NCBI GenBank assembly: GCA_943788135.1 | Contig: CALSPC010000009.1 | Span: 32,418 to 96,417, forward strand | DNA length: 64,000 nucleotides | Reading direction: 5' to 3' | Origin: an uncultured Paracoccaceae bacterium | GTDB lineage: Bacteria > Bacteroidota > Bacteroidia > Flavobacteriales > Flavobacteriaceae | Shown: positions 44,147 to 64,000 of the stretch, piece by piece | How positions within the stretch are numbered: position 1 is the first letter of the stretch | Layout: every line of letters starts with the position of its first letter | Notes under the pieces: model-generated | The model's database searches: none | What the model saw: the letters and a program-made list of their open reading frames with translations, nothing else | Told to the model about the DNA's origin: nothing | Translations under genes and position numbers: made by a program

Positions 44147-44251
44147 AAAACGTTAGCGTTGCTGGTTTTCATCAAGATTTAAAACTTTAAACCATAAATT
44201 TTGATGTTTTGAATATTTTAAGCGAAATTTACGGAAAATTCGATTTATTTC

Positions 44252-44791
44252 ATGCAAAATACTTCAAAAGAATACGATGCCGTTGTGCAAGTCTGTCAAG
44301 ACTTGTTCAGTAAAAAAATGAAAGACTATGGATGCGCCTGGCGGATTCTTAGGTTACCCTCTTTAACAGATCAAATTTTCATCAAAGCTCAGCGGATTAG
44401 AGGACTTCAACAAAATGCGGTTCAAAAAGTAGATGAAGGTGCTGCCACTGAGTTTGTAGGGATTATTAATTATTGTGTGATGGCACTCATTCAAATAGAA
44501 AAAGGCGTAGTAGAACAACCCGATTTGTCTTTTGAAGATGCTGTAGCGTTATATTCAGATAAAATTGCTGTGACCAAGCAGTTAATGATGGATAAAAATC
44601 ATGATTATGGGGAAGCTTGGCGCGATATGCGAGTGAGCTCGTTAACGGATTTGATTTTACAAAAATTATTGCGCGTGAAACAAATCGAAGACAATGCGGG
44701 GCATACGCTTGTAAGTGAAGGTATTGACGCCAATTATCAAGATATGATTAACTATGCCATCTTTGCTTTAATTCACTTAAACGCTTCTTAA
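44252..44791 (+). CDS. DUF1599 domain-containing protein
   Basis: The 179-residue protein consists of two similar halves. The first has KMKDYGCAWRILRLPSLTDQ and the second KNHDYGEAWRDMRVSSLTDL, each followed by a K-x-x-R-(I/V)-x-x-(L/I) helix. This is the DUF1599 duplication. A relation to nucleotide-modifying or NTP pyrophosphohydrolase-like folds is possible, but function is unknown. It is the first gene of a seven-gene operon; the next starts 2 bp after its stop region. Confidence 0.85.
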   Translation: MQNTSKEYDAVVQVCQDLFSKKMKDYGCAWRILRLPSLTDQIFIKAQRIRGLQQNAVQKVDEGAATEFVGIINYCVMALIQIEKGVVEQPDLSFEDAVALYSDKIAVTKQLMMDKNHDYGEAWRDMRVSSLTDLILQKLLRVKQIEDNAGHTLVSEGIDANYQDMINYAIFALIHLNAS

Positions 44792-44792
44792 A

Positions 44793-45887: not shown

Positions 45888-45893
45888 ACGCTT

Positions 45894-46973: not shown

Positions 46974-46986
46974 CTTTAGTACCAAA

Positions 46987-47475
46987 ATGAAAAAACTTCT
47001 TTTAGTAGCACTCTTCATTACCACGGTTTTAAGTTGTCAAAATCGGGTAGAAACACAGTTTTCTGAAGCCGCCTTAAACGATCAATTTGTGGCATTAAGC
47101 GGGGAGTCAGTTGAGTTTAAAACGATCTTAGAAAACCATAAAGGCAAGACTCTATTTATAGATGTCTGGGCCTCTTGGTGTAAGGATTGTCTTGAGGGTT
47201 TACCAAGTGTCAAGGTACTTCAAGCGAAATACCCCGAAGTTGACTTTGTGTTTTTGTCTTTAGACAAATCACAGAACGCTTGGAAAAAAGGGATTGATAG
47301 ATTACAAATTAAAGGTGATCATTATTTTATGCAATCGGGTTGGAAAGGCGCCATGGGTACATTTTTAGATTTGGATTGGATTCCGCGGTATATGATTATA
47401 GATCAACAGGGACAGATTAAAGTTTTTAAAGCTATTAAAACATCAGATAAAACACTATTAAATAATTTAAAATGA
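46987..47475 (+). CDS. TlpA-like thioredoxin lipoprotein
   Basis: This is an exported thiol-disulfide protein of 162 residues. The lipobox is VLSC (Cys17). The active site is WASWCKDC (Cys65, Cys68), and the cis-proline segment is IPRYMIID. Its stop overlaps the tpiA start by 4 bp (ATGA). Confidence 0.9.
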   Translation: MKKLLLVALFITTVLSCQNRVETQFSEAALNDQFVALSGESVEFKTILENHKGKTLFIDVWASWCKDCLEGLPSVKVLQAKYPEVDFVFLSLDKSQNAWKKGIDRLQIKGDHYFMQSGWKGAMGTFLDLDWIPRYMIIDQQGQIKVFKAIKTSDKTLLNNLK

Positions 47476-48221
47476 GAAAACAAATTGTAGCAGGAAATTG
47501 GAAAATGAATAACGACTATGTGGATTCAGAATTATTCGTTTCTAAATTGCTAAAAGAATTGAAACATACCCCAACGCAAGTTATTATTGCGCCACCTTTC
47601 ACCAGCCTTTTGGCCTCTTCAAATTCAGTCAAAGGAAGTCAAGTTATTGTAGCGGCTCAAAATATGCATTTTGCAGAAAATGGCGCTTATACAGGTGAGA
47701 TTAGTGCTGGAATGCTTAAAAGTGTTGGCGTAAAAACGGTTATTTTAGGACACAGTGAGCGTCGTGCCTATTTTAATGAAACCGATGCATTATTGGCCAA
47801 AAAAGTGGATACTGCATTAGCACATGATATGTGTGCAATCTTTTGTTTTGGAGAAGAATTGGAAGATCGCAAATCTGGAAATGAAGAAGCTATTGTAGAA
47901 GCACAAATTAAAAACGCTTTATTTCATTTGCCAGCTTCTGCATGGAAACATATTGTACTAGCTTACGAGCCGGTGTGGGCTATTGGAACAGGAGAAACCG
48001 CATCGCCACAACAAGCACAAGATATGCATGCCTTTATACGCAAAACTATTGCAAATCAATACTCAGCCGATTTAGCTGATGAGGTTTCTATTTTGTATGG
48101 AGGGAGTGTAAAACCAGCAAACGCCAAAGAGATTTTCTCAAAAGCAGACGTTGATGGTGGCCTAATTGGCGGCGCAGCATTGGATGTTGAGCAATTTACA
48201 GCTATTATAAATGCATTTTAA
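47472..48221 (+). CDS. tpiA: Triose-phosphate isomerase
   Basis: This glycolytic enzyme interconverts DHAP and GAP. Active-site parts are GNWKMN, GHSERR and AYEPVWAIGTG, followed by the phosphate loops LYGGSVKPAN and GGLIGGAAL. At 249 residues it is complete. Confidence 0.97.
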   Translation: MRKQIVAGNWKMNNDYVDSELFVSKLLKELKHTPTQVIIAPPFTSLLASSNSVKGSQVIVAAQNMHFAENGAYTGEISAGMLKSVGVKTVILGHSERRAYFNETDALLAKKVDTALAHDMCAIFCFGEELEDRKSGNEEAIVEAQIKNALFHLPASAWKHIVLAYEPVWAIGTGETASPQQAQDMHAFIRKTIANQYSADLADEVSILYGGSVKPANAKEIFSKADVDGGLIGGAALDVEQFTAIINAF

Positions 48222-48223
48222 AT

Positions 48224-49066
48224 TTGGCAGATTCTATTTATATAGGCTATACATTTAAAGTTGAACCCGTTCAGCCAGGTACCGAAATTCTAATTGCGGA
48301 ACTTGGCTTTTCTGGTTTCGAAAGCTTTGTGGAAACTTCTGACGGGGTTATTGCCTATATTCAAGAAACGGATCATTTTGATGCAATTTTAGACTCAATT
48401 CAGATTTTAAAATCTGAGGAGTTTACAATTACACATGAGTTTGAAGCCATAGCGCAGACCAATTGGAATGCAGAATGGGAGAAAAACTTCAACCCTATTG
48501 TGGTTGATGAGTACTGTGCTATTCGTGCCCCTTTTCATGAGCCTTTCAATGTTAAATATGATATTGTTATAGAGCCAAAAATGAGTTTTGGAACGGGACA
48601 TCATGAGACCACGCATATGATGATTCAGCATATTTTAGCGACAGATTTTACCAATAAATCTGTTTTAGATATGGGCTGTGGAACTGGAGTGCTGGCTATT
48701 TTGGCCGAAAAAAAAGGTGCAACATCTTTAGACGCTATCGATATTGATAATTGGTGTTATTTGAATAGTATTGAAAACGTTTCTAGAAACGAGTGTCGCC
48801 ATATCAATGTTTTAGAAGGAGACGCGTCTTTGCTTGTCGATAAACAGTATGATATTATCATAGCAAATATTAATCGTAATATATTACTCCATGATTTAAG
48901 TACATATAGTACTTGTTTAAATAAAGAAGGTTTCCTATTTTTAAGTGGTTTTTATGATAGTGATTGCGAGTTGATTGTATCTACTTGCGAAACACTAAAC
49001 CTTAAACTCAAAACTAAATTAAAACGAAACAATTGGGTTGCCCTAAAATTCGTTAAGTCATTATGA
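48224..49066 (+). CDS. prmA: Ribosomal protein L11 methyltransferase
   Basis: PrmA trimethylates ribosomal protein L11. The SAM motif is DMGCGTGVLAI, and a family segment FGTGHHETTHMM precedes it. The start is TTG at 48224, 2 bp after the tpiA stop. The gene overlaps clpS by 4 bp. Confidence 0.93.
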   Translation: MADSIYIGYTFKVEPVQPGTEILIAELGFSGFESFVETSDGVIAYIQETDHFDAILDSIQILKSEEFTITHEFEAIAQTNWNAEWEKNFNPIVVDEYCAIRAPFHEPFNVKYDIVIEPKMSFGTGHHETTHMMIQHILATDFTNKSVLDMGCGTGVLAILAEKKGATSLDAIDIDNWCYLNSIENVSRNECRHINVLEGDASLLVDKQYDIIIANINRNILLHDLSTYSTCLNKEGFLFLSGFYDSDCELIVSTCETLNLKLKTKLKRNNWVALKFVKSL

Positions 49067-49338
49067 GCACAAAAGAGAAAATTAAAGAACAGTTTGAGAC
49101 CTCAATAGAGGAAGGTCACTTAAACGAAATTGTACTCTTCAATGATGATGTTAACACTTTCGATCACGTTATTGAAACTTTAGTTCATGTTTGTCATCAC
49201 TCTTATGAGCAAGCCGAACAATGTTCGTTATTAGTCCATTATAAAGGAAAGTGCACCGTAAAAACAGGAGTTTACGAAGAATTAGAACCCCAATGTAGTC
49301 AACTTCTAAAAGCAGGTTTAAGCGCTGAAATCGTTTAG
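49063..49338 (+). CDS. clpS: ATP-dependent Clp protease adaptor ClpS
   Basis: ClpS delivers N-degron substrates to ClpA or ClpC. The binding-pocket segment LFNDDVNTFDHVIETL is present and HVCHHSYEQAEQC follows. At 91 residues it is complete. It ends the operon and overlaps the converging HMA gene by 4 bp. Confidence 0.94.
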   Translation: MSTKEKIKEQFETSIEEGHLNEIVLFNDDVNTFDHVIETLVHVCHHSYEQAEQCSLLVHYKGKCTVKTGVYEELEPQCSQLLKAGLSAEIV

Positions 49339-49607
49339 GATTTTGCCAAACGTCCTACTGCGCAACTCGCAAATGATTTTGCTTTTTTGCCAATTGAATT
49401 GGAATTTCCATCTACTGGATATCCAAGTTTAGACAGGAGTTCAACTGCTGTTTCCAAATCGTTAGCCTGGCTATATTCAAATGACACAGTATTACTTTCA
49501 GTGTTTACACTCACATTGTGAATGTGATCTAAAGCATTGAGTTTAGTTATAATTGTATGGGCACAGCCGCCACATTTTAGATTTTGAATTTCAAGTGTTG
49601 TTATCAT
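49335..49607 (-). CDS. Heavy-metal-associated (HMA) domain protein
   Basis: The first 68 residues form an HMA fold with the metal-binding CGGC (Cys12, Cys15). The C-terminal tail has IGKKAKSFASCAVGRLAK, with one more Cys. Copper or another soft metal is likely. It starts 11 bp after the MBL-rhodanese gene ends. Confidence 0.87.
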   Translation of the reverse strand: MITTLEIQNLKCGGCAHTIITKLNALDHIHNVSVNTESNTVSFEYSQANDLETAVELLSKLGYPVDGNSNSIGKKAKSFASCAVGRLAKS

Positions 49608-49618
49608 GGTTTAAGAGT

Positions 49619-51031
49619 TTAAAGTGTGGATGGACATACAAATTCAGATAGTGGTAAATCAGTTTTTTTAAGGGCTGCAAACCCACCAGCAATATCAATA
49701 ATTTTATGAAAGCCTCTTGCTTTTAAAATTGATGCTGCAATGACAGAACGGTAGCCGCCGGCACAATGGATATGATAGGTTTTGTGGGAGTCAATTTGAT
49801 TCATTTGTTGATTAATATAGTCCAATGCAAAATGTTGTAAACCGTCTATTTTTAAGTGCATCGAGTTGTGTTCGCCATCTTTTCGAACATCCAAAATATG
49901 GAGTTTATCGGCTTTTGTTTTTTGAGAAAATTCTTCTGCAGAAATAGATGTTAGATGATCGATTTCTTTTTTTGAAGTAATCCAAGCGTCCATTCCGCCT
50001 TCTAAATAGCCAAGGGTATTATCATAGCCAACTCGTGCTAAACGCGTTACTGCTTCTTCTGATTTTCCCTTTGGAGTAACTAAAAGTAGGGGTTGATTGA
50101 TGTCGGTGATTAGGGCGCCAACCCATGGTGCAAAACCGCCATTTAGTCCAATAAAAATAGCCCCGGGTATATGGCTTTTCACAAAATCTTGTTGTGTACG
50201 CACATCTAAAATTAGCGCTCCTTCGGATTTCGCGAGCTGTTCAAATGTCTCCACGGATAGAGGAGTGTCCCCTTTTGATAAAACCTGATCTAAAGCAGAG
50301 TATCCTCTTTGATTTAATTTTGCATTTTTTTCAAAATACTGAGGTGGTGGACTGATACCATCCAAAACTTCAATTACAAACTCCTCTTTGGTCATGGTTT
50401 CACGCAAAGCATAATTGGATTTTTTTTGATCTCCAATAGTGCCAACGGTTTCTTTACTTAAATTTTTTCCACAAGCCGAGCCAGCGCCGTGTGCAGGATA
50501 TACAATCACGTCATCTCCTAAAGTCATGATTTTTGTTCGTAACGATTCATATAATAGACCTGCTAAATCCTTTTCAGTAAGATCCGATTTTATTGCTAAA
50601 TCTGGACGTCCAACATCTCCTAGAAACAGTGTGTCTCCAGTAAATACTGCATGGTGTTGTCCATTTTCGTCAATCAGTAAATAGGTTACAGATTCTAGCG
50701 TATGCCCAGGTGTATGAAGTACTTTTATGGTGATATCTCCAATTTTGAATTCTTCGTTATCGGAAGCATTGTAGCTATCAAAAGTGGTTTTTGCATTGGG
50801 TCCAAAAACAATTGTTGCCCCTGTTTTTTTTGCCAAGTCCACATGCCCCGAGACAAAATCAGCATGAATATGCGTCTCAAAAATGTACTTTATATTTGCA
50901 TTGTTAGCAGTGGCTTTATCGACATACTGTTGTGTTTCTCTCAGTGGATCGATAATAGCAACCTCGCCTTTGGACTCGATATAGTAAGCGCCTTGCGCCA
51001 AACAACTTGTATAAATCTGTTCAATTTTCAT
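49619..51031 (-). CDS. Persulfide dioxygenase-like MBL fold protein with two rhodanese domains
   Basis: The N-terminal half is a metallo-beta-lactamase fold with THIHADFVSGH (His54, His56, Asp58). Two rhodanese domains follow. The first (about 255-350) has LVTPKGKSEE where the catalytic Cys would be, so it is probably inactive. The second (about 365-460) has HCAGGYRS with an active Cys. The family oxidises persulfides or hydrolyses related thioesters. A -7 element lies 26 bp upstream. Confidence 0.9.
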   Translation of the reverse strand: MKIEQIYTSCLAQGAYYIESKGEVAIIDPLRETQQYVDKATANNANIKYIFETHIHADFVSGHVDLAKKTGATIVFGPNAKTTFDSYNASDNEEFKIGDITIKVLHTPGHTLESVTYLLIDENGQHHAVFTGDTLFLGDVGRPDLAIKSDLTEKDLAGLLYESLRTKIMTLGDDVIVYPAHGAGSACGKNLSKETVGTIGDQKKSNYALRETMTKEEFVIEVLDGISPPPQYFEKNAKLNQRGYSALDQVLSKGDTPLSVETFEQLAKSEGALILDVRTQQDFVKSHIPGAIFIGLNGGFAPWVGALITDINQPLLLVTPKGKSEEAVTRLARVGYDNTLGYLEGGMDAWITSKKEIDHLTSISAEEFSQKTKADKLHILDVRKDGEHNSMHLKIDGLQHFALDYINQQMNQIDSHKTYHIHCAGGYRSVIAASILKARGFHKIIDIAGGFAALKKTDLPLSEFVCPSTL

Positions 51032-51133: not shown

Positions 51134-51207
51134 GGCCTCGTAGCATAACTGAATAGTGCACTTGATTACGGCTCAAGAGGTTGCAGGTTTGAATCCTGCC
51201 GAGGTCA
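51134..51207 (+). tRNA. tRNA-Arg (anticodon ACG), unusual A19-U56
   Basis: A cloverleaf folds: acceptor GGCCTCG/CGAGGTC with one G-T pair, D stem GCAT/GTGC, anticodon stem CTTGA/TCAAG around TTACGGC (anticodon ACG), T arm GCAGG/CCTGC. The D loop has GA instead of GG at 18-19 and the T loop is TTTGAAT instead of TTCGAAT, so the tertiary G19-C56 pair would be A19-U56. The 3' half overlaps the end of the recombinase frame on the other strand. Confidence 0.9.
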
Positions 51208-51210
51208 CTA
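51173..51210. other. Probable element attachment junction at tRNA-Arg
   Basis: The core genome ends and the accessory region begins here, and the recombinase frame runs antisense into the tRNA 3' half, stopping at 51173-51175. This is what an integration site inside the tRNA 3' end looks like. The second copy of the core sequence was not found in the window, so the exact crossover is unknown. Confidence 0.45.
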
Positions 51211-51214
51211 AATC

Positions 51215-51251
51215 GGAGAATTGATTCACAGGAATCGGTTCTCCATTTTTT
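51215..51251 (+). terminator. Terminator after tRNA-Arg
   Basis: A 13-bp stem (51215-51227 with 51232-51244, including G-T pairs) with loop ACAG is followed by ATTTTTT. It lies inside the recombinase C-terminal frame of the other strand. Confidence 0.88.
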
Positions 51252-52769
51252 ATGTTTGATATTTCCTTCGTTAAAATGGGAATTGAGCCAAAAATCGCAT
51301 TCACTTTTGGGGTTCGAACTCGGTCGTTTGACTTGTCGTAACCCAATCCGGATGGAAACACTAAATTTTGCAGTTTTTGTCGTTGTTTTAAATTCCCTTC
51401 AGTCCAAATCTTCTCAAGAGAAGCCGATAAACTAAGCGCTTTATCAATAGCCAATTCAAGGTTCGAACTATTTAATGATTGGATTTTCAATTTTTGACTG
51501 TAATTCTTCTTTTTGAGTTTCATATTTGTCTTTAAACTTTTTGTAGATAGCGTTATCTAATTCCCCAAGTGCGTATCGCTCTTCAATGGATTCTATTTTA
51601 GTATTTAGCTCTGTAATATTTTTTTTAATGAACTTCTTTTGGGTCCTTAAATCTTTGGTGATATTATCATAGGTATATGTCATCACCTCTTTTATGATGT
51701 CTTTATATTTTGGTTCAACTTGATACGTTCTCAAATCCTCTGTAAAAGTACTATGAAGTGTTTTAGCGGATTTGTTGCACGAGCACCCTTTAGTTCTACA
51801 CTTGTAATAGTAAAGCCCTTTTTTCTTGACAAGATATCCTGTTAGCGGTAGTTTACAGCTTTCACAGTAGATAAACTGCTTTAGGGGTAGGTTATCATTT
51901 TCTGCTTTGTGGTGTGTTGGATGATGGGTATTGATAGAGTTAATCTTTAAAAAGTCTTCTTTAGATACAAGTGGCTTATGCTTTCCTTCAATTATTTCAC
52001 CTGGAATCATCTTGCTCACAAGTATACCACAATAAAAAGGATTTTTAAACAACTCACTTATTCTACGCTCATCTATTTTCATTCCTAAGTTTTGAAGCTT
52101 ATCGATTATATCAATATTAGAATAGATTCCTTTTAATTTCCATGCAAATGCTTTCTTAATTAGCTTTCCATCTTCGGAGGGGATAATATCCCAATCTACC
52201 GCTTTGTGGTATTTCTTTTTATTGATGTATCCAACAGGTGGGTTCCATAACCAATAGCCTTTTCTAAGAAGGTCGGTCATCGCCGTAATTGTTTTGTCTT
52301 TTCGAAGCTCATTGTCAAACTGACTAAACATATAAAAAAGGTTCTGTTGAAACTTACCAGCTACTGAGGTGGTATCCACTTCTTGGGTTACTGCTTTGAC
52401 CTGAATCCCTTGGTCGTTTAACTCTTGAGAAATCTGTGCTGCACTACTTCCTGTCCTAGAGAATCTATCATAGGAGTATACAATGATATATCCCACTGTG
52501 CCACTTTGCCTGACGTATTTGAGCATCCGCTTAAATTCCTTGCGCTCATCACTTTTTGCAGACTCATAAGTCCCACCAAAGTAACCAGCTACTTTGTAGC
52601 CGTTAGATTTGGCATAATTCTCACAATATTTTTTTTGTGTTTCTAGAGATGTGTTTGTATCGGCTTGCTCTTTAGTGGATACGCGGGTGTAGATGATAGC
52701 ATTATTACTTTGTCTGAGCTGATTTTTCTTAGGAGCAAACTCTTTAAGCTTTTCAAGCGTATTCATTTC

Positions 52770-52937
52770 TTATTTAAGTGTGTTTAATATAATAATGCAG
52801 TAAGCTTCTAATGAAATCAAAAGCTCATCAATATTTTCATCCTTAGTGTAAATAAGGGATAGTTTTTCTTTTACAACTTTTCTTTTTTGTTCTGTTAATT
52901 TATCATCCTCTAAAATAGTTTGACTCATTTGGTCCAT
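52770..52937 (-). CDS. Small ORF (55 residues) just upstream of the recombinase
   Basis: I do not recognise this protein. It starts MDQMSQTILEDDKLTEQ and is charged and helical in its first half. The hydrophobic second half contains LLISLEAYCIIILN. It ends 3 bp before the recombinase start, so it is likely in the same transcript. A second ATG three codons later could be the real start. Small proteins beside serine recombinases may be directionality or regulatory factors, but that is only inference. Confidence 0.5.
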   Translation of the reverse strand: MDQMSQTILEDDKLTEQKRKVVKEKLSLIYTKDENIDELLISLEAYCIIILNTLK

Positions 52938-53001
52938 ATCGAGTTAAGATTAACTCAGGCTGGATTTTCAGGGACCGAATTTGTGCTACTTCTTTTCTCA
53001 T
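52903..53001 (-). CDS. Very small ORF (32 residues) overlapping the HTH gene stop
   Basis: The frame begins MRKEVAQIRSLKIQPELIL. Its ATG overlaps the stop of the HTH gene (TAATG), as in translational coupling. It overlaps the start of the 55-residue ORF in another frame. It may be a real leader peptide or chance; no family is recognised. Confidence 0.3.
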   Translation of the reverse strand: MRKEVAQIRSLKIQPELILTRYGPNESNYFRG

Positions 53002-53912
53002 TAGTTTTTTATTAACGTTAATTTATAGTTGCCTTGTGCTCTAATCTCAATAAGAAGTTTTGCACCCTTTGCTATTTTATGCTCTAAAATATATCTAGCC
53101 AATTGCTCTCTAGTTTTATGTTGTTCTGTTACTACAATAGGTTTTATGTTTTCATTTTCAAAAGCAATCTCAACTATTTTTGGTTTTTTAAAAACGACAA
53201 TATCTCTAATTTGTTTTTCAATTTCTGAGAGGTAAGAAAGTTCCTTTTTCTTATTTCCAAAATCTACCGCTAATACTTTAGCAATTATGGGTATCATTGG
53301 AATAGATACCATAGGATGTTGCATATAAACACTACTAAGTTTTAGGCTTAGGTTTGCATCTCCATAGAGAAATTCAAAATCATTAGTGTCTGGAATATAT
53401 ATTAACGTATGTGGCATAGACTCTCTTAAAATAGCCGATTTTAACATGTCTGTAAATGGATTGATAAGAGTTCTAAAGTTATGTTCCATTATGCGTTCAT
53501 CCTTAAGATAATCGTTTAAAGATTGAATAACATCCTGTGATAGTTGCAGTTTATTCTCTTTAATATGCTCTTTAAATACTTTATCAGCATATTTATCAAC
53601 TCTTGGTTTATCCCATATTGACTTTCCTAGAATGGCTATTTTGTCTGCTGATACTCCAAAAGAGGATAACGTATCGATAATACAAACCCATACAGCCTGT
53701 GATAAATTAAGTCGTATCCATTTGGTTTTTGTGGCTGCCTCTTTAGAAATTGTTTCTGTATTCTTAACATTTTGATGTTTTTCTACAAAAGGCACTAAAT
53801 TGTGGTCTAACCAATAATTTATTTTCCTAGAGGTAATACCTAACTGAGTTGGACTAATATCTTGTTGGTTATATACAATATCTCCTAAGCTTATAATTTC
53901 TATATCTGTCAT
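53001..53912 (-). CDS. MerR-like helix-turn-helix protein of the island
   Basis: The N-terminus has a winged-helix pattern: LGITSRKINYWLDHNLVP, then WIRLNLSQAVWVCIIDTLSSFG, which matches the MerR-type layout of helix-turn-helix, wing and second helix. The remaining 200 residues have no recognised domain. It is the first gene of the transcript leading to the recombinase and may control the element. Its -7 element lies 27 bp upstream. Confidence 0.65.
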   Translation of the reverse strand: MTDIEIISLGDIVYNQQDISPTQLGITSRKINYWLDHNLVPFVEKHQNVKNTETISKEAATKTKWIRLNLSQAVWVCIIDTLSSFGVSADKIAILGKSIWDKPRVDKYADKVFKEHIKENKLQLSQDVIQSLNDYLKDERIMEHNFRTLINPFTDMLKSAILRESMPHTLIYIPDTNDFEFLYGDANLSLKLSSVYMQHPMVSIPMIPIIAKVLAVDFGNKKKELSYLSEIEKQIRDIVVFKKPKIVEIAFENENIKPIVVTEQHKTREQLARYILEHKIAKGAKLLIEIRAQGNYKLTLIKN

Positions 53913-54815: not shown

Positions 54816-54937
54816 TTCATTGTTTTTTTTTGCACATTTTAAACGCCCCTTCAATCGATTTCATTGGAGTTTTTCTTTGGTGGTATGTTCTTGTCCTTTT
54901 TAATAAAATTAAAGTATTAATACCATTGGAAGTTCAA
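54816..54937 (+). repeat. Direct repeat, copy 2 of 2
   Basis: This is the second copy of the block at 54411-54541, with a longer T run near its start and about 10 bases missing in the middle. Confidence 0.8.
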
Positions 54938-55085
54938 CCTACAAATCATTTATATCATTAGCTTCTTGAAAAATTAAATTAGTTTAAAACTTGATGCTTA
55001 ATTTTAGCAGGTGCGACAGAACCGAATCAATGATGTGCTGAGGTATATCTTACATATAGACAAGGAATTAGATGAAAATAAAAAG

Positions 55086-55156
55086 GGACAAATCTCAAAA
55101 AATATGAGTTTGTCCTGTTTAGTGGAGCCAAAGGGAGTAAAGTCGAACTATTTTAG
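55086..55156 (+). repeat. Hairpin plus GTGGAGCC repeat, copy a
   Basis: A hairpin (GGACAAA, bulge, CTCA at 55086-55097 with TGAGTTTGTCC at 55105-55115) is followed by AGTGGAGCCAAAGGGAG and TCGAACTATTTT (55121-55156). The second part is shared with copies b and c; the hairpin arms differ in sequence but keep the same position. Confidence 0.7.
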
Positions 55157-55183
55157 TGATGATTTAGTTATTTTCACAAAAAA

Positions 55184-55267
55184 TTATTCCCAAGAATAAA
55201 AAATTATTTTTGGGAATAAAAAGTGGAGCCAAAAGGCCTAAAATCGAACTATTTTGGGGAGGATTTG
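55184..55267 (+). repeat. Hairpin plus GTGGAGCC repeat, copy b
   Basis: Two 16-bp arms (TTATTCCCAAGAATAA at 55184-55199 and its near complement at 55204-55219) are followed by AGTGGAGCC, TCGAACTATTTTGGGG and AGGATTT. Copy c at 58981-59062 matches over the whole length. The two copies enclose the single gene 55309-58977. Confidence 0.85.
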
Positions 55268-55296
55268 CGGCTCTTTTTTAGTTCTAAAAAATTCCC

Positions 55297-55304
55297 TAAA
55301 TTTG
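55297..55304 (+). promoter_or_regulatory. -7 promoter element for the secreted protein gene
   Basis: TAAATTTG matches TAnnTTTG and ends only 4 bp before the ATG, suggesting a leaderless mRNA. Confidence 0.4.
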
Positions 55305-55308
55305 TATT

Positions 55309-58300
55309 ATGAAAAAAATTATTACTTCATTGTACCTTATTTGTTTTGTTTTTCCTTTAGCTAATGCACAAAACGATTTTACCGTCACCGTTAACAACAT
55401 TAAGGAAGGTGATTCTGTCAGGGTTATTGCACAAAAATCTTCTGAATCACTTTTCAAAAAATGGATTCATGGCAGTACCACTCCAACAGAAGCTGTTTTC
55501 TCCCTAAGCGATGGTGAATGGGCAATTAAATTGGATGCTACTGGATACACATACCCATCACCACAAATAGTAAGTATTCCTAATGATGTTTCAATTACAT
55601 TTGGTTTAACAGAGTTGGTAGGTGGAGATTTTTCATACACTTGGGAGGATGACGGAAGTGCTGCTGGGCATGCGACACAACGTTATGTAAATGAACCGCC
55701 CAATATTGTGATTTTGAATGACACTTTGACTGTTCCTGATGACTACTCAGCGATAAAGCTAAGGACAGAATATGGGGTTATTTTGTCTAATGATAAAGAA
55801 ACTTGGTCAAGCGAGGATAGTTATCGTATGTATCAAATGTTTGAGTCTCTTCCTTACCGTGCATACGGAGAGCATGATGACAATAATTACTCTGAAGGGG
55901 AAGGTGTAAGAGGGGTTTTTTACTTAACAGATCTTGAGCAAGATGATGATCTTTCTATTGAACTGGTGGATGGTGTTAAGCATGCTACATTTAGTCAAAA
56001 TGCTTTTGTTTATTCGGAGCCAATGATTGGAAAATTAGACGGAATCAAGGGGAAGTTCTTTTCAAAAAGATTATATCATGCCATTGTCAAGTTTGTGACG
56101 GATTTTGCTCAGGACGATAATGCCCTGGCTTGGATTGCAAGGGAAAAATTTGGAATAGAATTTCTGTCAAGCACTCAGCAAACAGAAGAATTAATGGGTG
56201 AGGACTCATCTAACTTCCAAGCTTTCTTTAACACTGAAAAGTTGGAGATTTTGTCTATGTTAGAAGAGCTTCCGGATGGTTTTCACAAACAAGATGGGCT
56301 TAAATTTATGGTCAGACGGATTAATGGACAAGATAATCCACAATACCCATCTGCTGCTGCGATTGCATGGACGGGTTTAAATGTTATCGAGTTTATGTCA
56401 AAGGCATTTATTTCTTCTGATATTCATGACACAAGAAGGTTGATTTTACATGAAAAGGCGCATTTTTTATGGGCTTATACATTTGATGATAACCTAAAAA
56501 ATGATTGGATTGAAATTGGAGGATGGTATGAGGATCCAACGTCTGCATCTGGATGGTCAACAACAAACACTACAGAGTCAGTTTCAGCATACGCTCATTT
56601 GAAAAGCCCTAATGAAGATATGGCAGAATCCATTGCTTTTTACTTAACAAATCCAGATGCATTAATGTCTGTTTCAATGCAAAAATTTGAATTTATTAGG
56701 GATAGAGTTATGCATGGTACGCGTTATATTGCACAAATCCGTGAGGATTTGACGTTTACAGTTTATAATCTTTATCCAGATTATACATATCCTGGGAAAG
56801 TGACTAAAGTTGAGGTTGATGTAGTTGGTGGTTCTGAGGAAGATAAATTAGTAACTATTAGGGCAACATTGAACTCAAGTGATCCTGAGTTAGATGGTGC
56901 GTCTGGAGCATATATTCGTTTCACTTCGGGATCTGGCACTCTACACGATATTGGATTGTCTCCAGAAAATGGGCAACAATCAGACTCGGTACTTGTGGGC
57001 ACAACCACATTTAATAAATTTGAGAAAAGTGGATATTGGAACCTATCGTTTTTTAAAGTAACCGATCCTGTTGGAAATATGCGTTATGAAAATAGATCAA
57101 CTGTTGGCATGAAACTTTATATTGAAAATCCGCTTGAGGACATAACCCCACCAAAATACAATGATGATTATAATATGGAGTTGGTCACTGAAAAGTTCAG
57201 TGTAGGTTCATTTGGAAGTAATTTAGATGAAAATGGTGTTGAAATGCGTGCTATCAAGCTGAACTTTTCCCATTACGATAAAATTCCTATTTCAAGATCA
57301 TATGCAAGAATGAATGTACCTAATAATAATCATTCAGAAGTTTATAATAGAGACATTCAAATGAATGGTGCTGTCGTTGATTCCGAAAGGGGATATGATA
57401 ATGATTTTGATTCTGACAAACATTTTGAGCTATATCTGCCGATTCATGAGTATTACCAGTCAGGATGGTACTCAACTACTTATTCATTTGCCACTGATAT
57501 TGCTGGAAATAAAGGCACTGTATATCACGTAGTAGATACCACAGATTTTCATATTTCAGAAAATGACAAGCATAAAATTTTTAAGCATACAAGGGATAGT
57601 ATTTTTGTAGAAACACTTTATCCCGATTATAAGAAACCAGAAATTGATATCAATAACATCTCAATTACAGCCGAGCCTACAAACCCTACGGCACCAGATG
57701 GAGAAACTCGTGTTGAGATAGATATTTTAGCTAGAGATTTTTCTGACTTTGGAGGTCATGAATCAGGGGTTTATAAAGTCTCTTTTACTTTAAGAGATCC
57801 TTTAGGAGGTATTCATGGTTATCAAACAGGGAACTCTACTATGAATAATCCAGACCTAAATCACCATGATGCTAACCCTCAAAATGATAACGAATGGCGA
57901 TTATATAATTTTGATTTATTACTGCCCAAGGGCTCACCTCCAGGCCAATGGGGGATGGCTTCTGCTACTGTTGAAGACAGAGCCGGCAATAGAGAACAAT
58001 ATTCCTTTGTAGAATACGTTCGATTTGATATTATACCATCAGACATAGAATTAACATCTCCTCTTGAGGCAGAAATCACCGATAAAGTAGTGAATTTGGA
58101 TAATCTTTCAAGCATATCTGCTACTATGAGCTGTTCCCCATGCGAGGGGCTTAATTATGTCTACACAATATACAGTCTAATGGGGGGGAATGTTGTTCGT
58201 GGAGAAGGTGTTTTTGCTGCAGATAGTATTCAAGTTGATAACATCGATACCAGTGGTGTGTTGGATGGTGTTATAAAGCTTACCGTACAAGTTACTGACA

Positions 58301-58977
58301 GTGAAGATAAACTTGTTGCTACTAAAAGTGTTGAGTACACCAAAGACACAGTAAGGCCTAAGTCGTACTACTCACGGTCAAATTTGGAAAATGAAGGCAC
58401 CTCTAGCCTGGATGACTTTTTGATAGATGTAGTTGTTGAAAGTGCAGATGTAGGTGGTTCATATTCTGTTACTGTACAAAACGTAAGTGCTGATAATTCA
58501 AATACCTCTAATAGATCCGTTTTTAGACCATTAAATATGAATGGACCACTATACTACACAGGTGAGATTTCCACCACAGAGTTCAATATATCTCAATTGG
58601 ATTTATCAAGCCTGGGCGAAGGGTATGTTGAAATAAAGCTTGAAATCACAGATCCTAATGGAAACTTAGGGGAGGTGCCATATGTTGCATATTACACTAT
58701 TGAAGGAAATTCTATTAGTTATGTGGGTACTACACTTTCCACTGAAATTTTTAAAAATGATAAAAATATAACTCTATATCCGAATCCGACATCATCAAAT
58801 ATATTCATTGGGGGTGAGTTTAATAAAGTGAGACTCTATGATCTTTATGGACGTGAATTGCTAAAATCCACAAGCAACCAATTAGACCTTTCTAACTTAC
58901 CAAATAATGTATACATGATTAAATTGGAGGATAATCAAGGGAAGATTATTGCAATAGGTAAGGTTGTCAAAAACTAA
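55309..58977 (+). CDS. Type IX secreted, metalloprotease-like protein with C-terminal sorting domain
   Basis: This is a 1222-residue exported protein. A signal peptide ends near residue 20 (ANAQ). The segment LILHEKAHFLWAY (about 383-395) is an HExxH zinc site, and NEDMAESIAFYLTNP about 60 residues later could supply the third ligand. From about 500 to 1140 there are repeated Ig-like or bacterial-fold modules with DPxGN and DxAGN motifs. The C-terminus (about 1150-1222, YPNPTSSNIFIGG, LYDLYGRELL, ending GKVVKN) is a type A sorting domain for the PorU/PorV system. It is island cargo flanked by repeats b and c. Confidence 0.88.
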   Translation: MKKIITSLYLICFVFPLANAQNDFTVTVNNIKEGDSVRVIAQKSSESLFKKWIHGSTTPTEAVFSLSDGEWAIKLDATGYTYPSPQIVSIPNDVSITFGLTELVGGDFSYTWEDDGSAAGHATQRYVNEPPNIVILNDTLTVPDDYSAIKLRTEYGVILSNDKETWSSEDSYRMYQMFESLPYRAYGEHDDNNYSEGEGVRGVFYLTDLEQDDDLSIELVDGVKHATFSQNAFVYSEPMIGKLDGIKGKFFSKRLYHAIVKFVTDFAQDDNALAWIAREKFGIEFLSSTQQTEELMGEDSSNFQAFFNTEKLEILSMLEELPDGFHKQDGLKFMVRRINGQDNPQYPSAAAIAWTGLNVIEFMSKAFISSDIHDTRRLILHEKAHFLWAYTFDDNLKNDWIEIGGWYEDPTSASGWSTTNTTESVSAYAHLKSPNEDMAESIAFYLTNPDALMSVSMQKFEFIRDRVMHGTRYIAQIREDLTFTVYNLYPDYTYPGKVTKVEVDVVGGSEEDKLVTIRATLNSSDPELDGASGAYIRFTSGSGTLHDIGLSPENGQQSDSVLVGTTTFNKFEKSGYWNLSFFKVTDPVGNMRYENRSTVGMKLYIENPLEDITPPKYNDDYNMELVTEKFSVGSFGSNLDENGVEMRAIKLNFSHYDKIPISRSYARMNVPNNNHSEVYNRDIQMNGAVVDSERGYDNDFDSDKHFELYLPIHEYYQSGWYSTTYSFATDIAGNKGTVYHVVDTTDFHISENDKHKIFKHTRDSIFVETLYPDYKKPEIDINNISITAEPTNPTAPDGETRVEIDILARDFSDFGGHESGVYKVSFTLRDPLGGIHGYQTGNSTMNNPDLNHHDANPQNDNEWRLYNFDLLLPKGSPPGQWGMASATVEDRAGNREQYSFVEYVRFDIIPSDIELTSPLEAEITDKVVNLDNLSSISATMSCSPCEGLNYVYTIYSLMGGNVVRGEGVFAADSIQVDNIDTSGVLDGVIKLTVQVTDSEDKLVATKSVEYTKDTVRPKSYYSRSNLENEGTSSLDDFLIDVVVESADVGGSYSVTVQNVSADNSNTSNRSVFRPLNMNGPLYYTGEISTTEFNISQLDLSSLGEGYVEIKLEITDPNGNLGEVPYVAYYTIEGNSISYVGTTLSTEIFKNDKNITLYPNPTSSNIFIGGEFNKVRLYDLYGRELLKSTSNQLDLSNLPNNVYMIKLEDNQGKIIAIGKVVKN

Positions 58978-58980
58978 AAT

Positions 58981-59062
58981 TTATTCCCAAGAATAAATTA
59001 TTATTTCTGGAAATAATTTGTGGAGCCAAGAGGAGTGAAATCGAACTATTTTGGGGCGGGTT
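58981..59062 (+). repeat. Hairpin plus GTGGAGCC repeat, copy c
   Basis: The left arm is identical to copy b (58981-58996); the right arm (59001-59016) has three mismatches to a perfect complement. GTGGAGCC, then TCGAACTATTTTGGGG, follow. It starts 3 bp after the stop of the secreted-protein gene and reaches the end of the converging 414-residue gene. Confidence 0.85.
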
Positions 59063-60306
59063 TAATCGAAATATGTAAGTAAAAAATCTTCTGAGAAAAA
59101 TGAATAGTTAAGTTTCTTACTCAACGATTTATAACGAGTTCTTAAAGTTATCTTTTTAGTTTTTGTAGTAGTGCTATCATAATCGTATATGAGATATAAA
59201 AGGCTTATAAATTCTTCATAGCTATGCCGGCAATCATTTAGTTTAAAAGCTTTAAAAAATTTAGTTTCATTTTCTAAATCTCCGGCTAATCTGTAGTAAA
59301 ATAAACACATTAAATAAAAAGAATTTAATTGACTATTTTGATAGTGAAAATCAATTTTTGATTCAACTTTATCTATTAAAAAAGACATGATTTCAATGTT
59401 TTTTAATAGAATTGTAGTTGTAAATACCTCATAATAATGGCTAATTAAATCAACTTTTAATGGAAGAGATTTATGGTGAGTATTTATTATTTCTGTAGCT
59501 TTATCTGGATCTGCACTAAGAAGTTTTAAGCTCAATAATCGTCCAATTAAAATAGAATGCAATTGTTTTTTGTGGGGTTTGTCAATATCAAAATCTTTGA
59601 TTTTTGTATTATTAATAAAATTTCTAAATTCAAGTACCGCTTTTGAAAATAGAGTAATATCATATCTAACATTATTTTTTTTAATGATTTCTAAAGTATC
59701 CCCATAATATTTATTCAAACTCGAGTAGTCTACAAAAATTAGAAATACACAATCCAAAAAATTTATGTTATTGAGAAGTAGTGGGTGAAGTTTATCTTTT
59801 TTTCGAATTAATAAACCTATAGAATTACCAATTTTAAGCACTTCATCATAAGAAAACGAATTAAAATTAAGGGCCTTTAAATTGAATATTCTATCTATTA
59901 ATTTATAATTTCCGTTATGCCATAATTCACGTATTAAAATTATAATTAGACTTGTAAAGTCTTCAGAACTTTTTTTGGTTTTCTTTACAAGATTAACTAT
60001 GTCTTCAGGATTGTTCTTTGCAACAGATTTATAAATAATTTCAGTGATATTAATTTTTTCTTTGTACTTATAATTTTGTGTAAAATCGATGTAATTTTTA
60101 TAACCTATAAATTGAGCCAGAGTGTTAAATGTTTTTATACTTGTTTTTGTTGACGGCAAAAGATTGTAAAATCGTCTCAGGGTATTATAGCTTATTTCTA
60201 TATCTAAAATTTCAAAAATTGCATTTGACAAGAATACGCAGTCTCCTCTATTTTTTATTTCCCTTTTTATTTTCTTAGCGATTTCTTTCTTTAGGTTTTC
60301 AATCAA
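59062..60306 (-). CDS. Protein with Bacteroidota-type N-terminal HTH-like motif, unknown function
   Basis: The first 75 residues show a recurrent pattern of Bacteroidota proteins: ISYNTLRRFYNLLP, then FNTLAQFIGYKNYIDF, probably a DNA-binding helix bundle. The remaining 340 residues are alpha-helical and Leu/Ile/Lys-rich, like a repeat scaffold of the TPR type, but no clear repeat unit can be set. It is convergent with the secreted-protein gene. A duplicated promoter region lies upstream. Confidence 0.6.
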   Translation of the reverse strand: MIENLKKEIAKKIKREIKNRGDCVFLSNAIFEILDIEISYNTLRRFYNLLPSTKTSIKTFNTLAQFIGYKNYIDFTQNYKYKEKINITEIIYKSVAKNNPEDIVNLVKKTKKSSEDFTSLIIILIRELWHNGNYKLIDRIFNLKALNFNSFSYDEVLKIGNSIGLLIRKKDKLHPLLLNNINFLDCVFLIFVDYSSLNKYYGDTLEIIKKNNVRYDITLFSKAVLEFRNFINNTKIKDFDIDKPHKKQLHSILIGRLLSLKLLSADPDKATEIINTHHKSLPLKVDLISHYYEVFTTTILLKNIEIMSFLIDKVESKIDFHYQNSQLNSFYLMCLFYYRLAGDLENETKFFKAFKLNDCRHSYEEFISLLYLIYDYDSTTTKTKKITLRTRYKSLSKKLNYSFFSEDFLLTYFD

Positions 60307-60318
60307 AATAAATTATTT

Positions 60319-60346
60319 TATATGAGCCAAATATGAGCCAAATATA
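60319..60346 (-). promoter_or_regulatory. Promoter with tandem ATATGAGCCAA units
   Basis: The unit ATATGAGCCAA occurs twice in tandem. The distal copy ends in a complete -7 element (TATATTTG on the minus strand, 60339-60346), 33 bp before the start of the 414-residue gene. Confidence 0.5.
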
Positions 60347-60438
60347 TAATATTTATTACTTATTTTAGGTATTTAAAAAAGTATATTACCCCATTAATAC
60401 TTGTTCAATTTTTTTTTATAAATATTAATATTTTACAT

Positions 60439-60804
60439 ATGCTGGATTTAAATGTTGACTTACCTGATTTTATCTCTCCAGTAATGAAACAATGGTTAGT
60501 TCAATTTAAGTTAAATCAGATAAACGATTTAACACAATTGGGCTTATTTACATGGAGATTTAGGCCTAACAAACGTTTGCCAGAAAAGCCGAGAAGGATA
60601 CCCACACTAGATTTAGATAAAACGATAACGCTCAAAGATTCAAGTTTTAGTAGATCTGTGTACTTTTTACAAATAGATGCCAGCACATTACATGTTTTTG
60701 AATCCTCTGGATTTTCTATGGCCGGTATGAGTAAAGCTAAAGAATATTTTCTCGAATCTGATAAATTTACAGAAGGCAAGGTTCTTCACAGTATGATTAG
60801 TTAA
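60439..60804 (+). CDS. Hypothetical protein (121 residues)
   Basis: I do not recognise this protein. It starts MLDLNVDLPDFISPVMKQWL and has no signal peptide or membrane segment. A short basic Pro/Arg-rich part (FRPNKRLPEKPRRIP) lies in the middle. It precedes the degraded STAND gene on the same strand by 60 bp, so the two may be functionally linked. Confidence 0.55.
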   Translation: MLDLNVDLPDFISPVMKQWLVQFKLNQINDLTQLGLFTWRFRPNKRLPEKPRRIPTLDLDKTITLKDSSFSRSVYFLQIDASTLHVFESSGFSMAGMSKAKEYFLESDKFTEGKVLHSMIS

Positions 60805-60864
60805 TTACAAAAATTATTACAAACATTTTAGCACCACATTTTAATAGCGTACAATATTTAATTT

Positions 60865-61743
60865 ATGAAAAAAACACTTCCTCAATGCTTTAATTATTTT
60901 ATTGCAATACTATTTTTACTTTTTTCAAATTCTTTTGTGGGTCAAGAAAGCGCCCAAAACGATTCCCTAACTGCTAGTTTTGAGAAATATAAAAAGCATG
61001 TGCTAACTCTAGATTATATTGGAAGAAAAACAAACAGCAATCAATATTTTTTAAATCTAGCAAAAACCTATTGTGATTCAATCCTAACTACTGGTATTGA
61101 TGATGATTGGGCAATTGCATTTAAGGAAAAAATAGATTTAACAATAGCTACGTGTGAATTTAACATGAACTATAAGGTTCAATTGTTTCCATATTTTAAC
61201 GGCTTTCCTTCGTACATGGGTTTTGCAGATGATGCTATAGAATACGCATATGATGACGCCTTAAATGATTTATTTGCCACTAAATTTAAGAAAATTGGGA
61301 ATACACCATTGGCAAATGTTAATATATCGTCAATCATCACAAGAGGAGACTGTGACGATGAAATGTTTGAAATTGTAAAGCAAACAATAATGGCAGGTAC
61401 AGATCACATTGTACTTACCAAAGAAGATTTAGAGCGCATGCTTGGAGTTACTCGAGCCACAAATCTTACCAATGGAAACTTAGATAAAGCTGATTTAGAT
61501 TTAATATCTACAGAATTAAAATTAGACAACCTTGGAATATTTGATGTTAGTAATGTAGATGTTATTGATGAAAAAATATGGTTGGTTCAAAGTAAATTTA
61601 ACACATACTCAAAAAAAGAAGGCTTTACGTCGTCTGTTTTTACCAAGGGCTTTTGCTATGATAAAAAGGGATTTATTGGTTTTAATATTATTTTACTCAT
61701 CTTGGAATCTATTTTGTTGATTAGCGCTAATTGCGGTGATTGA
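60865..61743 (+). CDS. N-terminal piece of the STAND gene: exported CsgG-like domain
   Basis: This open part of the broken gene encodes 292 residues. A signal peptide ends near residue 28 (GQES). The segment DHIVLTKEDLERMLGV, followed by GNLDKADLDLISTELKLDNLGIF, follows the pattern of CsgG/TolB-like domains (a regulator-like Arg/Glu loop, then a helix and a strand). It ends in the first membrane helix, where the frame is lost near 61720. Confidence 0.6.
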   Translation: MKKTLPQCFNYFIAILFLLFSNSFVGQESAQNDSLTASFEKYKKHVLTLDYIGRKTNSNQYFLNLAKTYCDSILTTGIDDDWAIAFKEKIDLTIATCEFNMNYKVQLFPYFNGFPSYMGFADDAIEYAYDDALNDLFATKFKKIGNTPLANVNISSIITRGDCDDEMFEIVKQTIMAGTDHIVLTKEDLERMLGVTRATNLTNGNLDKADLDLISTELKLDNLGIFDVSNVDVIDEKIWLVQSKFNTYSKKEGFTSSVFTKGFCYDKKGFIGFNIILLILESILLISANCGD

Positions 61744-62267
61744 TGAGAAAATCATACCAAATACATTAGAACCAGAAAGCTATTTTCCTTCAAAGACTTG
61801 TTCTATCAACTCCTCAAGAAAAATTAAATTCGTTACCATCTGCTTTATCTCCCCTATATTTTTATCTGCATTGATGATATTCTCTGTTTCATATTTAGCT
61901 CCAGATGCCACAGATCATTATTTAGAATCTGCAGCGATGCTCTGGGTTGTCGCTCTTACTTTGGCTATGAGTATTAGTGCCTACGTTTATTAATCTATTT
62001 TTAGTTAACAGATTACAGATAGATGGTTTCCATAACCTCAGAGGCTATCGAACTTTTGCCAACGCATCTTTGTACGCTACTTATATTCCTCTTTTTGTTT
62101 TTTATATCATTCAATTTGAGTACTATCCTAGAGCTGCACATTTTATTTTGGTAATTCTAACTTTTGTTTTGGGTGACTTGATTGCAAGATCATACTTTCA
62201 GTTTACGAGTAAAACCAAACATTCAAATTTAAAAACTCAGGCGCTTATTTGGTGTCATTGCGGGTAG
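61727..62267 (+). pseudogene. Membrane-helix piece of the STAND gene
   Basis: Two frames joined near 61985 give at least four hydrophobic helices (for example FVTICFISPIFLSALMIFS and ASLYATYIPLFVFYIIQF). They connect the exported part with the cytoplasmic ATPase. Confidence 0.55.
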
Positions 62268-62758
62268 TAGTTGCTCTTGATTATTTTTAACTACTTATGC
62301 GCTCAAGGATATTTCTGTTGACACTTTTGTAGGCATTTTAATTTTTATTGCTCCTATTTCAATCTCATTCACTGGTTAATTGGTAAGTACATTGATAGTG
62401 CTTAATAGTAAAAAATTAAAATCTCCTGATGGAAATACACGTTGTTAGATAACCTTCTCTTTATTAAATGATGTTGTAGATCCAGTATCAGCTTTATATG
62501 ACCCAATACAAAGTGATTTGTCTGATGATAATTTAAACGTAATGTTAGTTGCTGCTCCTATGGGCATGGGGAAAACAAGAAGTTTAAATGAGGCTAAGGG
62601 AGTCATTTTTCGAAAATGACTGGAAATGGTACTACGGTGATTGTGATGAGATTCAGGATGAGAATTCGGTCTCCTTTGAGCCTTTTCTTGAGGCCTTTAA
62701 AGACCTTCTTAGAGGTTGAGGAGTTTGTAGATAGGTCTACTACAAATGGAGTCCATTA

Positions 62759-62989
62759 GTGGGGAGGCAGTTAAAGCCCTTAGCAGACATTGCAGGAGGC
62801 TCCTCAGATTTGATCAGTGATTTTAAAAGAGACGAAAGTCGCACAATGACAGAAATAGGCGTTGAGATTGCCGAAAAACTTGAATTAAGCAAAAACAAGA
62901 CAGTTTTTGTTATGGAGGATCTTCACTGGATTGATCCAGAGAGTTATGCCTTTTTAAAGCATTTCATCAAAACTGTTAAACAGAAGTGA
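62759..62989 (+). pseudogene. Walker B piece of the STAND gene
   Basis: The 76-residue frame has SKNKTVFVMEDLHWIDPES, the Walker B region of AAA_16/STAND ATPases. It stops at a TGA at 62987. Confidence 0.55.
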
Positions 62990-63308
62990 CTTTATTAGAA
63001 AGAATATGTGCATCGTTCTTAACTATTAGAAACGATGAGGTAAACAATTTAAGAGGGAGTTAGTCTACAAGCGCTCAAAGATGATTTAGAGGATGCCTTA
63101 AACAATAGTCTTGACCACTGAAGGCAGTAATTACGGATTTGCTTAGTTGAGGAAAGCTTTAACGTAAAAGATTTTATTAACCATGTCAGCAATCAAAACT
63201 CACAGTTTAAGATACAAGAGTGATTCGCTTGCTGATATCAACTACAAGTTAAATAGTTCCTTAAACTTGATACAGACTCTAACCTGAAAGATTACCCCGC
63301 TCTATGTT

Positions 63309-63833
63309 TTGAAAATTGTTGAGCAATGGATACAAAACAAAGTGCTAAAGTTTACTCCTGACGGTTATGTTCTTACAGACTCTATAGAATCTATTGAGCT
63401 GCCAAACACAAAAGAAATAGATTCTTATTATCACTCTATTCTTGGAGAGTTTGATGTGAAGTGGGCTAGAATGTTGGAGAGTGCTGCTATTATTGGCAGT
63501 AAATTTAATGCTGATATTTTATCTCAAGTTTGGGGCTATGAGTTGCTCGAAATACTTGGTTTTTTAGAAGAAGCTGAAGCTAAGGGCTTAATTATTGATT
63601 TATCTGAAGAAGATAATATTTATGAATTCAGTGATAAGCGGATTGTATCTGCAATAAAAAGTTATTTTCCTAGCTCTCAAAATAGTGGAGTTAAGCAAAT
63701 TATCATTGAGTACAACAAGAGATACATTGACCTTCAAAAAGATATTATTAATGCCCCATCCGAGTTTTCTATGAGAAGAAATTTTGTCTGTGGTAAGACG
63801 CCTCACCCTTATGTCTTCAAGTTCAGCGCATAG
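63309..63833 (+). pseudogene. C-terminal helical piece of the STAND gene
   Basis: The 174-residue frame has LESAAIIGSKFNADILSQVW and FLEEAEAKGLI, the winged-helix part that follows a STAND ATPase. Another frame continues from about 63860 to the window edge (VRMILNEEHEKINAFVSFL). Confidence 0.55.
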
Positions 63834-64000
63834 TATTGACCTACCAAGCGTCTCATTTTTGAAATTATTGTGAGGATGATTCTTAATGAGGAACATGAAA
63901 AAATTAATGCATTTGTAAGTTTTTTAAGAAATAGAAATCTTACAGACTTAGCTGATCTTATAGCTATAATCAATAAAATTGCAAATCCAAATACTTCTTT

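Follow-up and report, generated by a model that had tools for sequence, protein, structure and literature searches.

Staphylococcal cassette chromosomes (SCC) integrate at the 3' end of rlmH, a conserved gene, where they can stand in tandem, some of them without a recombinase. In an integron array a conserved site lies at one end of each cassette, breaks are one-sided and the newest cassette stands at the head. A third system, in Dehalococcoides, is described in the available part of McMurdie et al., 2011 (PMC3146451) as islands in tandem downstream of ssrA with variable cargo, in which a gene for a CcrB-like serine recombinase of ~540 aa overlaps the left junction and reads into ssrA, and 15 of 31 islands have no integration module. 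Here we describe three repeat units, a, b and c, in a 64,000-nucleotide stretch of an uncultured bacterium placed by GTDB in the Flavobacteriaceae (G000:C9:32418-96417 in our genome:contig:position notation; hereafter the window, whose right edge is the contig end). With a probability of roughly 80%, these units are attachment junctions between cassettes that a serine recombinase has integrated in tandem, forming an array that stands behind the gene for transfer-messenger RNA (tmRNA, ssrA) or, in other genomes, tRNA-Ala(GGC).

The three copies lie in direct orientation (a, 55075-55165; b, 55176-55266; c, 58973-59063); b and c are 84% identical across 91 nt, and copy a is 64% identical. All three contain GTGGAGCC and TCGAACTATTTT, and the pattern GTGGAGCC-N8..16-TCGAACTATTTT occurs at only these three places in the 1.91-Mb source assembly (92% complete), with 0 control matches. 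A first-pass annotation made from the letters alone had reported three such units in these places, b and c in direct orientation and sharing a 16-bp inverted repeat (in copy b, arms 55184-55199 and 55204-55219) and fixed tags, with a hairpin of different sequence in copy a and a single gene between b and c (one open reading frame of 1222 aa, 55309-58977); all of this is borne out. What has to be revised is its treatment of hairpin and GTGGAGCC tag as one unit, since a cassette boundary separates the two. Read on the minus strand, the units run AAATC..CCAAAATAGTTCGAYTTYACTCCCYTTGGCTCCAC and then pass into differing starts: a conserved module of ~45 nt closes with CTCCAC, and the next cassette begins there with a variable sequence that is often a hairpin. 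In an alignment of 80 sites from many genomes (only matches having 70/110-nt flanks), the stretch from AAATC to CTCCAC is conserved and conservation is lost directly past CTCCAC; for bases that the search pattern fixed, conservation follows by construction, which does not apply to the upstream AAATC..CCAAAAT or to the loss after CTCCAC. Each hairpin is thus part of the next cassette, and the recombination units are best placed at the three 45-nt modules on the minus strand, which gives the following features:

55122-55166, minus strand: attachment module of unit a (core G000:C9:87539-87571, 0 mismatches to the consensus pattern)
55223-55267, minus strand: attachment module of unit b (core G000:C9:87640-87672, 0 mismatches to the consensus pattern)
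59020-59064, minus strand: attachment module of unit c, CTCCAC at 59025-59020 (core G000:C9:91437-91469, 0 mismatches; aligns with b)
55075-55121, minus strand: cassette start beyond unit a, a hairpin (fold -13.0) of the type that recombinase-bearing elements show behind tmRNA, as in G001 and G006
55176-55222, minus strand: start of the 101-bp cassette, a hairpin after the CTCCAC of unit b (inverted repeat; fold -14.4 kcal/mol)
58981-59019, minus strand: start of the b-c cassette, a hairpin after the CTCCAC of unit c (fold -11.2 kcal/mol, tmRNA strand)
55122-55222, minus strand: minimal cassette of 101 bp, hairpin and module only (a-b; from the site-to-site list)
55223-59019, minus strand: complete cassette of 3,797 bp with one secreted-protein gene (b-c; from the site-to-site list)
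59020-64000, minus strand: terminal part of the next cassette, cut off by the contig end (94.7% to G064 over ~4,980 bp)
55309-58977, plus strand: cargo gene for a 1222-aa protein with a type IX secretion sorting domain (Pfam Por_Secre_tail, 2.2e-8)
55024-55127, plus strand: 3'-end remnant of a serine recombinase gene of the tmRNA type (93% over 103 bp to G065; 92% over 104 bp to G001)

In this genus, tmRNA genes have ...GAGTTCGATTCTCGGCGACTCCAC as their 3' end, and the sequence behind it is of four start kinds among five genomes. GTTCGA and CTCCAC are the only parts common to the module and the tmRNA 3' end, and the distance from GTTCGA to the end of CTCCAC is 27 nt in the module against 22 nt in tmRNA. 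The GTTCGA...CTCCAC of the module mimics the tmRNA 3' end. The earlier remark on a degenerate tRNA 3' end was essentially correct, the resemblance being to the 3' end of tmRNA and tRNA-Ala.

The module is widespread among related bacteria. With the 91-nt unit as query, 24 of 60 genomes matched at E<=0.01, 17 of them in the genus (source genome counted); the matches are often clustered, several cover the hairpin only, and in G010 (one contig) and G004 they gather to one side of the tmRNA gene. When GTDB genomes were scanned with AGTTCGAYTTYANKCCNYTNNNCTCCAC, 96 stretches matched, against a rough chance expectation of ~0.1. Eighty of these were entered as loci, and 79 of the 80 bear Bacteroidetes names (Polaribacter, Formosa, Lutibacter, Flavobacteriaceae and others). 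A Pantoea dispersa record (L137, NZ_SCKT01000006.1:47-74) has the pattern 47 bp from its contig start, possibly through contamination. When up to three mismatches were allowed, 67 sites were found in 17 of 20 chosen genomes, 14 of which had been picked for already holding the pattern, with 0 control matches. A weight matrix trained on the 80 sites scored full sites at 49-82 bits and four decayed sites at 20-32, and found nothing at or above 5 bits in 354 kb of reversed sequence. The 80 modules share no structure in alifold (energy 0.0), and 50 of the 80 starts after CTCCAC fold at z<-2 against single-base shuffles; of the stretches upstream of the module, 12 of 80 do so. An RNA-family reading was rejected, as Rfam at its gathering threshold finds only three tRNAs in the window and the module has no conserved fold.

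We identified the RNA genes that head such arrays with ARAGORN and the RNA 3'-end pattern GTTCGANTC-N7-CTCCAC. Two kinds were found: tmRNA (for example in G010, G004, G066, G060, G063:C7, G065, G068 and G069) and, less frequently, tRNA-Ala(GGC), which likewise ends in CTCCAC (G062, G072:C54, L130). Of the 67 sites, 48 share a contig with an RNA 3' end of this kind, and 38 of those lie downstream of it and co-oriented with it within 120 kb, 33 behind tmRNA ends and five behind tRNA-Ala or Ala-like ends (two of these five, in G071:C2, rely on the pattern alone). Sites stand in tandem downstream of ssrA and in its orientation in G004 (7/7), G010 (4/4) and G066 (6/6). In G071 (C1:582314) a second copy of a tmRNA-type 3' end (GTTCGATTCCCTCCGACTCCAC) lies ~6 kb behind the tmRNA gene.

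Cassettes are shared between genomes, and their homology breaks at the module. In a set of 115 sites with 150-bp flanks, pairs from different loci were alike on one side in 122 cases (68 downstream, 54 upstream) and on both sides in one, figures inflated by small hairpin cassettes and by at least one pair from a single genome (L138/L178). With 400-bp flanks at >=70% and small cassettes excluded, 70 sites gave 13 one-sided cross-genome pairs and no two-sided pair; in both counts each remaining locus is treated as its own genome, and the 13 pairs join different genomes as judged by record names. In the window, positions 59020-64000 match G064 at 94.7% over 4,982 bp up to the module, after which the next cassettes differ. 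The housekeeping stretch 44000-51000 aligns with G064 in pieces only, at 66-72% (one 41-bp piece at 88%), compared with 79-83% to genomes of the window's own genus, so G064 is probably of another genus. A cassette stretch ~95% identical despite far more divergent ordinary genes suggests that the sites probably mark gene traffic between genera. The first-pass annotation had proposed a recombination-site family or mobile cassette and, as a check set beforehand, a search of other genomes with the unit: copies do flank different genes in the arrays of many genomes, and homology between genomes stops there. A fixed 3' flank without gain or loss of the enclosed gene, the outcome it had named as contrary, is not what the genomes showed.

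The enzyme most plausibly responsible adjoins the tmRNA. In G006, G063 and G065 the first gene behind tmRNA encodes a serine recombinase that converges on it, the reading frame entering the tmRNA; in G001 the tmRNA-adjoining gene is broken into two frames. The elements bounded by tmRNA and module measure 10,046 bp (G063) and 14,327 bp (G065). The G063 protein has the Resolvase, Recombinase and Zn-ribbon domains of a large serine recombinase (PF00239, PF07508, PF13408); the best NCBIfam match of the tmRNA-type recombinase is CcrB (E 1.3e-31), with scores of 109.9 bits for CcrB and 44.6 for CcrC lying below the family cut-offs of 900 bits. The G063 and G065 recombinases are 97% identical to each other and 67-68% identical to that of G006. 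Identity to the tmRNA type is 89% for the recombinase at tRNA-Ala, the other target, in G394, 62% for one at tRNA-Met, 60% for one with no tRNA in its stretch and 34-40% at other tRNAs. Among 397 genomes of the family, 20 matched at E<=1e-60, and 22 of the 25 loci listed have a tRNA or tmRNA gene in the stretch. These loci (L338-L362) outline a wider Flavobacteriaceae family of serine recombinases near tRNA genes (Leu, Arg, Asn, Met, Lys, Ala) and tmRNA. At L386 (G061:C13, Polaribacter filamentus), a hairpin of the recombinase type and a stretch resembling the recombinase 3' end, as judged by eye, follow the tmRNA; the domain scan found no resolvase there. Carriage by phages or plasmids was rejected: no module was found in viral contigs, nor was a relative of the recombinase confirmed in them, and plasmid and phage records (96 and 316) gave only recombinase matches below 60% identity (23-28% among the 24 listed). 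In the window, the 104-bp recombinase-gene remnant abuts unit a, so a recombinase element formerly lay beyond unit a, with other cassettes between it and the presumed tmRNA.

On these grounds we propose the following mechanism. An incoming circle would carry the 45-nt module ending in CTCCAC, joined to its own start, which is often a terminator-like hairpin. Crossover would take place within the CTCCAC that terminates the host tmRNA (or tRNA-Ala-GGC); the tRNA-like end would stay intact and gain the cassette start, and the module would come to lie at the far end of the cassette, joined to the sequence formerly behind the RNA gene. Repeated insertion would give RNA gene, cassette-module, cassette-module and so on, the newest cassette adjoining the RNA gene. 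The recombinase would most likely be the CcrB-like serine recombinase of ~530 aa that some cassettes encode in a frame running into the RNA gene, and cassettes without one would be moved in trans. Starting from where the tmRNA is presumed to lie, the window itself would then hold an open cassette, c, the cassette of the secreted protein, b, the empty cassette of 101 bp, a and the remnant of a recombinase cassette. A bolder extension, which we offer tentatively and hold to be somewhat less probable than not, is a common cassette pool in marine Flavobacteriia, in which one CcrB-like recombinase, mostly in trans, inserts any module-ended DNA behind tmRNA or tRNA-Ala by one-sided recognition, forming integron-like platforms across genera; the pool would range in size from the 101-bp empty unit up to islands of 73 kb, with polysaccharide-utilisation and defence clusters among them.

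Several observations weigh against the cassette-array reading. Mobility is deduced from genome comparison, no excision having been seen, and misbinned contigs could fake transfer, G064 being a metagenome bin (274-kb contig). The sequence to the right of the crossover is not conserved, while serine integrase sites are two-sided, which makes one-sided conservation unusual. The 120-kb limit behind the 38 of 48 was chosen after the G004 array was seen to span 114 kb. Ten of the 48 sites are not downstream of a head: the three in the window, two in Polaribacter filamentus, four in G063:C1, near a tRNA-Met island, and a weak one in G060. At ten sites a head within 120 kb stands in another arrangement (three of them also have a fitting head, seven do not), and the module of L136 is convergent with the tmRNA it faces. 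The arrays of G010, G004 and G066 contain no serine recombinase (G010 has one resolvase, of 235 aa, outside its array), and for this reason trans action has to be supposed. The window genome's own tmRNA is absent from its assembly and would lie beyond the contig end. Contig C7 starts within a gene that neighbours tmRNA in G010 and others, in an orientation that fits its following C9, and a C9-C7 join would place it there; a synteny search for the C9 gap, using the G004 stretch from galE (named by eye) and the G010 stretch behind tRNA-Arg, gave no match among 19 contig ends of 20 kb. On this contig the RNA gene closest to the units, tRNA-Arg, stands at the other end of the array and was rejected as its head because the units point the opposite way. 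With 1.67 Mb between tRNA-Arg and tmRNA in G010, this position calls for a rearrangement or a moved array.

Could another enzyme have built the array at the same site, namely a tyrosine recombinase of host or phage origin working in trans, so that the serine elements would be no more than one user of the site? The arrays that lack a serine recombinase would suit this, as would a decayed tyrosine recombinase fragment (below cut-off, with stops) that adjoins a module at G066:C7:97454 and a tyrosine recombinase ~12 kb from a module in G064:C5. The G010 and G004 arrays, however, contain no tyrosine recombinase, the module forms the end of two serine recombinase elements, and the type of hairpin seen in the recombinase elements recurs at unit a and behind tmRNA; we regard this alternative as unlikely. 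We give still less credence, as a quite improbable case, to homologous recombination between repeats, or to unrelated islands that share tmRNA with no common cassette system. The available text on islands at tRNA and tmRNA genes (PMC4383910) describes these genes as commonly used, and the arrays do hold islands of up to 73 kb, but one 45-nt module ends cassettes of unrelated content in many genomes and the 101-bp minimal cassettes are fixed in length. Those minimal cassettes make up 12 of the 64 stretches bounded on both sides, the a-b unit of the window included. A length of 45 nt is also short for homologous recombination between genera.

The least credible of the alternatives, to our mind scarcely tenable, is that the units are mere portable terminators or RNA 3'-processing signals behind genes, which the first-pass annotation had also put forward. 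Part of that suggestion stands: hairpins occupy the position expected of a tmRNA terminator, differ between genomes and, in the 50 of 80 starts, fold at z<-2. Yet the conserved part is the module, which has no fold, and the hairpin is not conserved; flanking genes vary between genomes and homology breaks at the module. A terminator scan of 54900-59200 gave one candidate, within the gene, and flagged none of the three units, a result that also tells against our own account. The exchange data largely refute a terminator-only reading, and we retain that of serine-recombinase cassettes.

The 64 both-side-bounded cassettes range from 81 bp to 72,947 bp, and 18 of them measure 81-102 bp; the list omits 31 of the 80 loci, whose genomes were already represented by other stretches. 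Cassette genes point both ways. In G010, a 44-kb stretch between two sites, absent from the 64 and with a two-mismatch site as its far boundary, holds SusC/SusD-like proteins, three GH92 and two sulfatases among ten proteins scanned, the ten also including proteins of other G010 cassettes. G065 carries McrBC and a type I-like system, G069 GmrSD-like and methylase genes, and a type II-like restriction system is also among the cassettes examined. In family searches only the type IX secretion tail of the window's cargo protein was recognised. A homologue at L151 is 62% identical over the full length; its gene belongs to the first cassette behind tmRNA, with 43 bp between its 3' end and that of the tmRNA. 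At 56449-56463 the cargo protein has HEKAH, which resembles HExxH, a motif typical of zinc proteases; no family match backs it. Two 146-bp cassettes (L138:5063-5209 and L178:5216-5362) also hold a stretch that by eye resembles a tRNA-Leu 3' end, like attachment sites fused back-to-back. Beside the window array, a separate serine recombinase gene (51468-52766) converges on tRNA-Arg(acg) and has a partner gene for 303 aa (53001-53912) with no Pfam match; 51134-53912 is probably a second island type at a tRNA. This recombinase is unlikely to serve the array, being 28-29% identical to the tmRNA type and adjoining tRNA-Arg.

If the proposed reading holds, gene traffic between marine Flavobacteria can be traced by searching for the module as a sequence tag, and the way in which clusters such as those examined here move between marine Bacteroidota could become open to direct tests. 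A further suggestion is that arrays of this enzyme type at ssrA are found well beyond Dehalococcoides and can have another kind of site. In the open-licence literature we found no title or abstract describing this flavobacterial system.

Among described systems, tandem islands at tRNA and tmRNA genes in general likewise occupy tRNA-like genes and restore their 3' end, but the available text on them (Islander, PMC4383910) describes integration as catalysed by tyrosine integrases, which differs from the serine recombinase of our arrays; a tyrosine integrase adjoining tRNA-Arg in Riemerella, per the accessible part of its report (PMC6764341), is a different case. Integrons likewise form arrays in which each cassette has a conserved site at one end, breaks are confined to one side of it and the newest cassettes stand at the head, but here gene orientation is mixed and the largest cassettes are 73 kb long; an integron was rejected, there being no PF00589 match within G010:C1 280-360 kb or G004:C2 560-700 kb and no attC-like fold. 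The heads are tmRNA or tRNA-Ala, not rlmH as in SCC. With SCC and the Enterococcus cassette chromosome (ECC), as far as the available text goes (PMC6222049), the arrays share a CcrB-like serine recombinase, although its score here is far below the family cut-off. The system works like SCC and an integron array, yet fails the defining tests of both. With the Dehalococcoides islands, on the part of their description available to us, it shares the tandem layout, elements without recombinase, varied cargo and a recombinase that reads into ssrA and overlaps the left junction (one long frame in G063, G065 and G006; two frames in G001). By the same source, it differs in phylum, in its second target, tRNA-Ala(GGC), in its 101-bp empty cassettes, in having a 45-nt module as boundary in place of a 20-bp direct repeat of the ssrA 3' end, and in a junction at the 3'-terminal CTCCAC, not the T-loop. 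The second small serine recombinase of the Dehalococcoides integration module does not accompany the flavobacterial recombinase at the loci checked, with a single PF00239 gene at each of G063:C7, G065:C7 and G006:C72. On balance, the flavobacterial arrays are best read as working like the Dehalococcoides ssrA islands and SCC, with a different site.

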